64,000 nucleotides of DNA, taken from contig NZ_CP040021.1 in the NCBI RefSeq assembly GCF_005280275.1, positions 2,691,001-2,755,000 of the forward strand, read 5' to 3'. The notes beneath the pieces were generated by a model that saw only the letters and a program-made list of their open reading frames with translations, did no database searches and was not told where the DNA came from. Shown here one piece after another: positions 43,617 to 47,216 of this stretch. The translations under genes and the position numbers were made by a program. Within the stretch, counting starts at the first letter, position 1. Every line of letters begins with the position of its first letter. The stretch comes from Salinivibrio kushneri (GTDB lineage: Bacteria; Pseudomonadota; Gammaproteobacteria; Enterobacterales; Vibrionaceae).

Positions 43617-44102
43617 TTAATCATCCTGTTGCTCAAATTTAGCCAGCAGGTCATCGTCATCATTCAACTCATTGTCGTCGGTCAGCAGGCCCAGTTTATC
43701 CATCAGCACTTCAATCCGATCCAGCTTTTCATCCACGTAAGCTTGCAAGCCCGCGCCCAACTTCTCACCATTTTCGATGCGATCCAGCAACACGTTCAGT
43801 TGTGGGTCTTGCTCAAGCTTTGCAAGCTCTTGCTCTGGCGTGAGTTTGGGTTGCTTCGGTTTTTCTGCATCCGTACCCAATGGGATCGGCTTTTTACTGC
43901 CAATGCGCGGGTCTTTTTTACCACCGCTGCGACGCACTTGCTTGTTGTCTTCTTCTGAATGACGCGAGCCGGCTTTCTTGCCCTTACGCTTTTTCTGCTT
44001 TTTCAGCATTCGCGCAATGCGGTCTTGCTCGTTCTGGTTTTTATCTACGTATTGCGCCGGGCCTTCCGATCCTACGCGGCGCGTTTTCTTTTTACGCGTC
44101 AT
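43617..44102 (-). CDS. yihI: Der GTPase-activating protein YihI
   Basis: A 161-aa protein that stimulates the ribosome-assembly GTPase Der (EngA) in E. coli. Lys/Arg-rich N-terminus ([11 protein letters not shown], and 34-50) and an acidic C-terminus ([19 protein letters not shown]) match the family. Overlaps the preceding methyltransferase gene by 4 bp (ATGA). Confidence 0.93.
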
Positions 44103-44749
44103 GTCTGTGGTTTCCTCATTAAAATTACGTCGTTGCCAATAAACGTGAGCGCCAAGCCAGCTTGGTGAGCTAAAAACTGGAACGTATGGCGACTAAAAAA
44201 GCTAACGTGAGTCAGATCGTTCTTATAGTGCCAGCGTGAAAAAGCATCTGGATCCTTAACCAGTTTGGTCATAATCCCCAAATAGCCGCCCGGTTTAAGC
44301 ATTGAGAGCCATTGATGCCACTGCGCCTTCGGCCAATAAAAATGCTCGATCGCCTCCGTACAGGTAATAAAGTCATAGCATTCATCCAGTACGTCGGTTT
44401 GTGGCGCATAGAAGGGATCATAGCAGGCCACATCATGCCCTGCGTCTCGCAACATACTCGCCAACACGGGCCCTGGGCCACAGCCAAAGTCTAGCCCGCT
44501 CGCAGGCACCGCCAATCGCGCCAGCAAGGGTGTGGCTAAACGCGATAAAAAGCGCTGGTAGCCTTGGTCCTCCGGGTGATTTTGGTGCAAATCATAAATG
44601 GCCTTTTCGTCCTCGGGCGCGAGCAGCGTTTGGCGATCAACAAATACCAACGCGCAATCCGTGCATTGAAAGTACGCACGGCGTTTGTCGGTATGATAAA
44701 GATGGGTTGTTGTGTGCTCACATAAAGGGCAGTGCTGCATATCATTCAT
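44099..44749 (-). CDS. Class I SAM-dependent methyltransferase with N-terminal zinc ribbon
   Basis: 216 aa from ATG 44749 (a second ATG lies 9 nt downstream). Residues 6-35 form a two-pair cysteine ribbon (CPLCEHTT...CTDC). The Rossmann methyltransferase domain includes [15 protein letters not shown] (about 83-97) and the later post-I motifs. Substrate unknown; such proteins often act on nucleotides or small molecules. Directly downstream of the Csr-type sRNA and first of the methyltransferase-yihI-DUF2489 operon. The ribosome site is weak. Confidence 0.85.
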
Positions 44750-44792
44750 CTATGCCAAAGGCTGGCGCGAATGTAGCAGAAAGTGGGTCAAT

Positions 44793-45109
44793 AAAAAAGC
44801 GACAGGCATAAAGCCTGTCGCGTATCGCGCTTGCGATAATAAGCGGATCGTGTCCGTCCTGGTACTGGGTTCATCCCTGATAAATGGCGCTTAGCGCCTT
44901 AGTATCAACATCCTGTCATTGTGGGTAGCATGCCTGCCTATCCGTCGCTTCCTGCGTCCTTGTCGCTCGACACCCACTACACATCCTGTGTCACGTCATC
45001 CTTGTGCGCCAACCTTGGCAACATCCACATCCTGTGGTTAGACCGTCCTGGTGCTCATCTGCCTTGCTTGGCTCAGTCTCTTGTCCTTAAGGCCAACGTC
45101 CTGTTGATA
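44793..45109 (-). ncRNA. csrC: CsrB/CsrC-family sRNA (RsmA/CsrA sponge)
   Basis: The minus strand contains about 14 GGA motifs, many as CAGGAT or CAGGAC, in roughly 315 nt, and several sit in hairpin loops (CCACAGGATGTGG and ACACAGGATGTGT fold with GGA in the loop). It ends in a classic terminator, GCGACAGGC/GCCTGTCGC with a 5-nt loop and six T (44793-44821). A -10-like TATGCT lies at 45116-45121. GGA repeats plus this terminator are the hallmark of RNAs that sequester CsrA. Position between engB/cytochrome c4 and yihI matches E. coli csrC. The symbol csrC is by synteny; the RNA family assignment is the secure part. Start is estimated. Confidence 0.88.
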
Positions 45110-45115
45110 GTGATA

Positions 45116-45121
45116 GCATAT
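45116..45121 (-). promoter_or_regulatory. Predicted -10 element of the Csr sRNA
   Basis: TATGCT on the minus strand, about 7 nt before the inferred RNA start. No good -35 is visible at standard spacing (TTCTAG is 19 bp away), which fits an activator-dependent promoter. Confidence 0.5.
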
Positions 45122-45195
45122 CGCAGTGACCGCGCTTGCCTAGAATGACCGCCAAATAAAATAAGAAGCGAAAATGTACATTGGAGGTAAAGCAA

Positions 45196-45309
45196 TGATT
45201 TTAAAGAAGATAAAAATATATCTTTCAAGAAGTGACGTGTTTTTCTTGCTAGCAAATAGCCAATCTCTCACACACGAGGTCGCTGTTATCGCTATCGGCG
45301 TGGTGTGAT
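45196..45309 (+). CDS. Possible small protein (37 aa) with strong ribosome site
   Basis: The ATG at 45196 follows GGAGG (45184-45188) with 7-nt spacing. The 37-codon frame begins MILKKIKIYLSRSDVFFLL, basic then hydrophobic, and ends TGA at 45307-45309. I do not recognise it. It lies divergently from the Csr sRNA, in the stretch that should hold that RNA's activator site. It may be chance. No homology can be judged here. Confidence 0.3.
45261..45273 (-). promoter_or_regulatory. UvrY/VarA (GacA-type) half-site
   Basis: The minus strand reads TGTGAGAGATTGG. The first ten bases equal the left half of the UvrY box I recall from E. coli csrB (TGTGAGAGATCTCTTACA); the right half is not conserved. 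It lies about 140 bp upstream of the -10, a distance seen for UvrY activation. Confidence 0.45.
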
Positions 45310-45408: not shown

Positions 45409-46026
45409 TTAGTGTAGCCCGCCTAAGTAGTTAGACAGCGCGTCAATTTCCTTGTCCGTCAGCTTCGCCGCGACCGACCGCATCATTTTGTTCATATCAT
45501 TATGACGCTCTGCGGCGCGGAACATTTTCAACTGACTGGCTAGGTACTTCGCAGGCTGGCCAGAAATTTTCGGGAAACCAGAAGAAGGGGTGCCGTTCCC
45601 GCGAGGACCGTGACAGGCTGTACAGGCTGCAATACCGCGCTCAGGATCACCGGCCATGTAGAGCTGGCGGCCTACCTCGATAGCGCCTTCAGGCGTGGTA
45701 CCAGGCTTGGGTGTTAAGGTTGCATAATACGCCGCTAAGTCTGCCATGTCCTGCTCAGAAAGCGGCGCGACCATGCCAGCCATTACAGCGTTATATCGTC
45801 CTTGCTCACCGCCGCTTTGCGCGCCGAGCTTAAATTCTTTCAGTTGTTTCTCTAGATAGTTGGCGTGCTGACCCGCCAAGTTTGGGTAATCAGGCAAAAC
45901 ACTGTTACCGTCAGCACCGTGACAGGCGACACAGGTATTGGATTTTGCTTTGCCCGCTTCAGCATCTCCTTGGGCCCAGACTGAAGTGCTGGCGAGGAGA
46001 GTCAATATTAGCGCTAATTTCTTCAT
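45409..46026 (-). CDS. Diheme cytochrome c4
   Basis: Periplasmic electron carrier to cytochrome oxidases. 205 aa with signal peptide MKKLALILTLLASTSVWA/Q. Two heme sites, CVACH (about 32-36) and CTACH (about 135-139), in two similar halves. Met ligands are plausible in the MAGMVAPLS and NKMMRSVAAKL regions. Commonly sits beside engB in vibrios and pseudomonads. Confidence 0.95.
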   Translation of the reverse strand: MKKLALILTLLASTSVWAQGDAEAGKAKSNTCVACHGADGNSVLPDYPNLAGQHANYLEKQLKEFKLGAQSGGEQGRYNAVMAGMVAPLSEQDMADLAAYYATLTPKPGTTPEGAIEVGRQLYMAGDPERGIAACTACHGPRGNGTPSSGFPKISGQPAKYLASQLKMFRAAERHNDMNKMMRSVAAKLTDKEIDALSNYLGGLH

Positions 46027-46175: not shown

Positions 46176-46817
46176 GTGGAGCAATCACTTAATTACCGTA
46201 ACACCCAGTTTGTTACCAGCGCACCCGACATTCGCCATCTTCCTGATAATACGGGGATAGAGATTGCGTTTGCTGGCCGTTCCAACGCCGGTAAGTCTAG
46301 CTCCCTTAACCGTCTTTGTGACCAAAAGAGCCTAGCAAAGACCAGTAAGACACCCGGGCGCACACAATTAATTAACCTCTTTAAGGTGGACGAAGGTTGT
46401 CATATTGTCGACCTACCCGGTTATGGTTATGCCCAAGTCCCTTTGGAAATGAAAGAGAAGTGGCAGCGTTCACTGGGAGAATATTTACAAAAACGTGATC
46501 AACTTGGCGGATTAGTGGTGTTGATGGATATTCGTCATCCGATGAAAGACTTGGATCAGCAACTGATTTACTGGGCGGTAGAGTCTCACTTGCCAGTGTT
46601 GGTACTACTGACCAAAGCCGATAAGTTGAAATCAGGGGCACGTAAGCAGCAACTGATGAAAATCCGTGAAGCGTCACTGGCCTTTTGCGGCGATGTTGAG
46701 GTCGAGTTGTACTCATCGCTCAAAGGCATGGGCGTCGATAAATTACGCCGCAAGCTAGACGGCTGGTATCAACAAGATCCCTCTCCCCTCGCCGACGACG
46801 CACAACCAACCGATTAA
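46176..46817 (+). CDS. engB: Ribosome biogenesis GTPase EngB/YihA
   Basis: Essential GTPase of 50S assembly. 213 aa. G1 [10 protein letters not shown]3 DLPGYG and G4 LTKADK are present, and the circular order is normal. GTG start with GGAG 8 nt upstream. Upstream is the divergent cytochrome c4 gene. Confidence 0.96.
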
Positions 46818-46951: not shown

Positions 46952-47087
46952 GTGCGCATTATAACCAAGCCCTTAGCCAAAATTAAAGTAATTGCTCTAA
47001 TTTTTTTGAAAAGAATGGAATAATGCGAGTCAGCAAACGATAAAAAGGCAGTGGCAGGGTGACGCCTCGCGATGACGATTAGCCAAT

Positions 47088-47193
47088 AAAAAAAGCCCCA
47101 GTCAGTATCCTGACTGGGGCTGCTGAATCAGCCAAATCCAATAACGTGAAACAAAAGGTCTGAAAGATAGAACATCTTACCTCTGTACCCTAC
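47088..47193 (-). ncRNA. spf: Spot 42 small RNA
   Basis: The minus strand begins GTAGGGTACAGAGGTAAGAT, continues with the GTTCTATCTTTCAGACC region and ends in the terminator GCCCCAGTCAGGATACTGACTGGGGC plus T-run (described in parts: stem GCCCCAGTCA/TGACTGGGGC). This is nearly identical to E. coli Spot 42, which represses many carbon-use genes with Hfq. Located between polA and engB, its usual position. Confidence 0.97.
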
Positions 47194-47201
47194 GCTGTTA
47201 A

Positions 47202-47216
47202 CTGTATATCAATCAC
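47202..47216 (-). promoter_or_regulatory. Possible CRP-like site upstream of spf
   Basis: GTGATTGATATACAG on the minus strand resembles GTGA-N6-TCAC, with a poor right half (TACA). CRP represses spf in E. coli, but this match is weak and overlaps the likely -10. Confidence 0.3.

Follow-up and report, generated by a model that had tools for sequence, protein, structure and literature searches.

A candidate csrC-type CsrA sponge RNA gene between engB and yihI in Salinivibrio kushneri

Described CsrC and CsrB-type RNAs and the Salinivibrio locus

The closest described counterpart of the RNA gene considered here is CsrC of E. coli (b4457) and Salmonella, for which UvrY sites have been published, TGTGAGACATTGCCGATA upstream of E. 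coli csrC and TGTGAGACATTGACCATT upstream of Salmonella csrC (PMC4682653). In V. cholerae, the RNAs CsrB, CsrC and CsrD are reported to carry a csrB-type VarA site (TGTGCGAGATCTCTTACA) and to share an identical 3' stretch (PMC6550530). They resemble the Salinivibrio RNA in the presumed titration of CsrA under VarS/VarA, but differ from it in the box, which is of the csrC type in Salinivibrio. The csrB-type site and the shared 3' stretch make it most likely that 'CsrC' of V. cholerae is a paralogue of csrB and not the counterpart of the Salinivibrio gene, and the name 'CsrC' would thus appear to denote different genes in V. cholerae and E. coli. In published surveys, csrB-type copies in Vibrio number two to four (PMC6262261).

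The window, the whole 64-kb stretch of S. kushneri DNA that was analyzed, contains the following features around the RNA gene:

43617..44102, minus strand: yihI (Der GTPase-activating protein; NF003560, 151 bits)
44099..44749, minus strand: predicted SAM methyltransferase gene, downstream of the RNA gene and overlapping yihI (weak UbiG match)
44793..45108, minus strand: candidate CsrC-type sRNA gene, about 316 nt, 14 GGA; start predicted to within a few nt; conserved in seven Salinivibrio genomes
44793..44821, minus strand: intrinsic terminator GCGACAGGCTTTATGCCTGTCGCTTTTTT, with a 9-bp stem (GCGACAGGC/GCCTGTCGC) and a T6 tract
45115..45120, minus strand: TATGCT, predicted as the -10 element, some 7 nt upstream of the predicted start (opposite TAAAGT in the alignment with E. 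coli csrC)
45137..45146, minus strand: ATTCTAGGCA, conserved in the Salinivibrio alignment, -35 region
45255..45272, minus strand: predicted UvrY/VarA (GacA-type) box TGTGAGAGATTGGCTATT, centred at about -155 (weight matrix and genome pattern match)
45409..46026, minus strand: gene for a di-haem, c4-like cytochrome, upstream of the RNA gene (c-type cytochrome family matches)
46176..46817, plus strand: engB/yihA (TIGR03598, 237 bits)
47087-47203, minus strand: Spot 42 RNA between engB and polA, the same place as in E. coli, with polA beyond (117.8 bits, above the Rfam cut-off)

The order on the minus strand is cytochrome c4 gene, RNA gene, methyltransferase gene, yihI and hemN, where the first gene is presumably that of cytochrome c4. 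In E. coli K-12 the order is polA-spf-yihA-csrC-yihI-hemN, and the same order and relative orientations are found in Salinivibrio, with the RNA gene between engB/yihA and yihI and on the yihI strand. The preliminary description was right to place the RNA between engB and yihI like E. coli csrC, but the cytochrome c4 and methyltransferase genes, which are additional to the E. coli neighborhood, also sit in that interval.

Besides genomic place and orientation, the Salinivibrio gene has in common with CsrC of E. coli and Salmonella a UvrY box of the csrC type at about -155 to -160, the GGA count (14 and 14) and the terminator core (GCGACAG...CTGTCGC). The E. coli RNA is shorter (246 nt vs about 316 nt) and the body sequences are little alike. 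The strong terminator noted earlier is present at 44793-44821, as in other sponge RNAs, and its core (GCGACAGG..CCTGTCGCTTTTTT) is common to the other aligned Vibrionaceae loci and the enterobacterial locus, that is, conserved to E. coli csrC. Conserved sequence on the 3' side of the terminator could be the promoter region of the methyltransferase-yihI operon.

The box TGTGAGAGATTGGCTATT is close to the published csrC sites of E. coli and Salmonella and, by sequence match, lies far upstream of the promoter, as is characteristic of sponge RNA genes: about 155 bp before the predicted start, compared to about 160 bp for TGTGAGACATTGCCGATA in E. coli csrC. The distance from the box to the first downstream GGA is also similar (171 nt in Salinivibrio vs 177 nt in E. 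coli). With a weight matrix based on the csrC-type boxes found in E. coli and in other genera, TGTGAGAGATTGGCTATT scores 24.8 bits, whereas the next-best place in the window reaches 16.8. It is also the sole exact match in the whole genome to a degenerate box pattern, which was drawn up after csrC-type boxes had been seen; a genomic site with one mismatch to the pattern falls within a coding gene and was discarded. Alignment of TATGCT to the TAAAGT of E. coli csrC places the start near 45108 and gives an RNA of about 316 nt; the assignment of TATGCT as the -10 element is a prediction that draws on this alignment and the E. coli annotation. The poor -35 is as expected for an activator-dependent promoter.

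GGA motifs and folding of the predicted RNA

The preliminary description reported about 14 GGA motifs in approximately 315 nt of the minus strand, and this count holds, with 14 GGA in a predicted RNA of about 316 nt. In 44793-45126 the minus strand has 14 GGA and the opposite strand has 1, and it is the most GGA-dense minus-strand stretch of its length in the window (334-nt mean 3.9, sd 2.1). No long ORF was found on the RNA strand of the gene; many GGA on one strand of a non-coding RNA of 200-400 nt is the pattern of the sponge RNAs (Rfam clan CL00106). Given the G+A-rich composition, the count by itself is only moderately unusual: mononucleotide shuffles of the stretch contain 8.1 GGA on average and 63 out of 5000 reach 14, and segment-swap shuffles of the RNA body give a mean of 8.2 (sd 2.1), with a maximum of 15 among 100. 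Nevertheless, the GGA signal stands above chance because of the sequence context, the clustering of one motif and the preferential conservation of the triplets. Ten of the 14 GGA are in an AGGA context, and three of the four occurrences of CAGGATGT on both strands of the whole window fall in the RNA stretch; this motif resembles the published consensus for CsrA, RUACARGGAUGU (as quoted in PMC6550530). Across seven Salinivibrio genomes, in which the RNA measures 308-347 nt and has 11-18 GGA, GGA triplets are identical in 85% of relatives vs 56% for other triplets (terminator left out; permutation p about 0.001).

Two GGA hairpins are listed here for the predicted RNA:

45024..45036, minus strand: GGA hairpin around CCACAGGAUGUGG, close to the CsrA SELEX consensus
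44978..44990, minus strand: GGA hairpin around ACACAGGAUGUGU

The stability of the whole RNA fold is not unusual (z -1.27), and the GGA motifs have a mean unpaired probability of 0.69 vs 0.44 overall. Several GGA had been described as lying in hairpin loops, the exposed setting usual in sponge RNAs; this is true of 5 out of 14 in the MFE fold, and most GGA are located outside the MFE hairpin loops. Several small GGA hairpins show compensatory changes among Salinivibrio. The consensus fold of the seven Salinivibrio sequences comprises 76 pairs, 10 of which changed on both sides, compared to a mean of 3.9 in shuffled alignments (none of 500 shuffles as high) and 1-3 for slid structures. As the consensus structure comes from this very alignment, the share of paired cells is biased in its favor; the two-sided changes are the stronger evidence, although relatedness among sequences can also lift such counts above those of shuffles.

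Minor variation was seen within the genus. In Salinivibrio sp. ES.052 (L017:2853-3199) the 5' end of the RNA has a tandem ATCAAC expansion of five extra units. In one other Salinivibrio genome (L018, G003) the contig stops soon beyond the 5' portion of the RNA gene, and yihI is represented only by a fragment on a different contig, reflecting either an assembly break or a rearrangement.

Family assignment and rival readings

In the Rfam CsrB/CsrC search proposed in the preliminary description, the models did not reach their cut-offs. The CsrB model aligns to the Salinivibrio RNA over its full length with 22.4 bits (E 0.0033; cut-off 71), and the CsrC model (RF00084) gave no match in the window with an E-value of 1 or below. 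However, a syntenic enterobacterial csrC control locus likewise falls below the cut-off for all Rfam csr models, so that the cut-off was taken here as a detection threshold rather than a defining trait. A match to Hrs12 at 44792-44886 (32.9 bits vs a cut-off of 70) was set aside; the part of the alignment shown matches mainly the terminator hairpin.

A profile of 28 syntenic loci from other Vibrionaceae, none of them Salinivibrio, finds the Salinivibrio locus in two parts, the terminator together with its downstream sequence (6.5e-10) and the promoter with the 5' part (1e-5), and also finds E. coli csrC (1.9e-8, 1.6e-7). As it also matches the genome's own csrB region, partly in AT-rich upstream sequence (1.3e-8), the profile is better evidence of membership in the family than of a distinction between csrC and csrB; that distinction comes from synteny and box type.

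The genome encodes one CsrA, a UvrY/VarA (75% identity) and a BarA/VarS (1327 bits, cut-off 890), the partners of a sponge RNA. One canonical CsrB is located elsewhere in the chromosome (C1:668530-668913; Rfam CsrB 110 bits). Like the RNA described here it is a GGA-rich non-coding RNA with a VarA-type box and a terminator, but it has 25 GGA, a csrB-type box (TGTGCGATATCTCTTACA) and another genomic place, and is not a near-identical copy; no near-identical second copy of the csrC-type RNA was found in the genome.

Based on the synteny, the csrC-type box, the GGA content and conservation, the terminator homology and the presence of CsrA, VarA and VarS, the RNA is with high probability a csrC-type CsrA sponge RNA gene of Salinivibrio, and it is very likely an orthologue of enterobacterial csrC. 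The same lines of evidence bear out the earlier suggestion of a CsrB/CsrC-family sponge in the csrC-syntenic position. Phosphorylated VarA/UvrY, via the VarS/BarA kinase, would bind the box at about -155 and turn on a weak promoter, giving an RNA of about 316 nt whose 3' end would be set by the intrinsic terminator. The GGA motifs of this RNA, several of them within small hairpins, could bind several CsrA dimers and keep CsrA off its mRNA targets, in parallel with the separate canonical CsrB (25 GGA). The proposed tie between virulence-type control and this locus has no support, as sponge RNAs titrate CsrA and so exert their effect in trans.

The RNA stretch is on the strand of the methyltransferase-yihI operon and just upstream of it, with the terminator preceding the operon, as would suit a regulated 5' leader, an attenuator acted on by CsrA and not a free sponge. 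We consider this very unlikely. E. coli lacks the methyltransferase gene, yet its csrC is annotated as a separate RNA, and 14 sites far exceed a typical leader. The conserved sequence after the terminator could, moreover, provide the operon with a promoter region of its own. A survey of yihI loci, covering a subset of genomes per genus (g-numbers are working genus labels; g3 is Enterovibrio), bears on the same point: 13 g10 loci keep cytochrome c4-methyltransferase-yihI without the RNA, and because the neighboring genes stay where it is absent, the RNA is a separate unit.

Decay of a former csr gene, or a functionless, chance GGA-rich intergenic stretch, would account for the low Rfam score and for a GGA count that alone only moderately exceeds shuffles, and some g12 genomes do have reduced copies that contain 7-8 GGA and lack a VarA box. 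In Salinivibrio, however, the GGA are preferentially conserved, the hairpins show compensatory changes, and the VarA box, terminator and spacing are all kept, which makes this reading very improbable.

Distribution in the Vibrionaceae and beyond

The csrC-type sponge gene appears at the same place in several other genera of the family, but not in all. Enterovibrio (g3), g7, g9, g11 and g13, three of four g8 genomes and eight g12 genomes have a syntenic GGA-rich stretch accompanied by a VarA-type box. The RNA is absent, leaving a short gap, from 13/13 g10 loci examined and from the g2, g4, g5 and g6 loci examined, and it is absent from the syntenic place in one g8 and one g12 genome. The reduced copies occur in three g12 genomes (L164/L173/L213; G065/G029/G018), with a terminator visible in L164 and L173, and represent either decay or changed function. 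Most syntenic Vibrionaceae copies are detected by Rfam weakly or not at all, mostly below thresholds.

No published report of this Vibrionaceae gene was found in the literature on csrC with yihI, on Salinivibrio CsrA, on a fourth Vibrio Csr RNA or on V. cholerae genes near this place; within that literature, the csrC-type sponge RNA of Salinivibrio and its occurrence in Enterovibrio and the other genera are new. Considering this literature together with the genomes surveyed, the gene may be uncounted in such species, and the two to four Csr RNAs usually counted in Vibrionaceae on the basis of csrB similarity may be one short. Studies that delete the full set of Csr sRNAs in such species would then have to include it. 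The csrC lineage probably predates the split of Enterobacteriaceae and Vibrionaceae and persists at its original position across many Vibrionaceae genera, an extra sponge RNA that was overlooked next to the csrB-type copies counted in the literature, with several lineages having lost it or let it decay.

In other families of the order, too, GGA-rich stretches were seen at the place between engB/cytochrome c4 and yihI (L184, L185, L196, L190, L201, L158 and L155), some of them with a csrC-type box.
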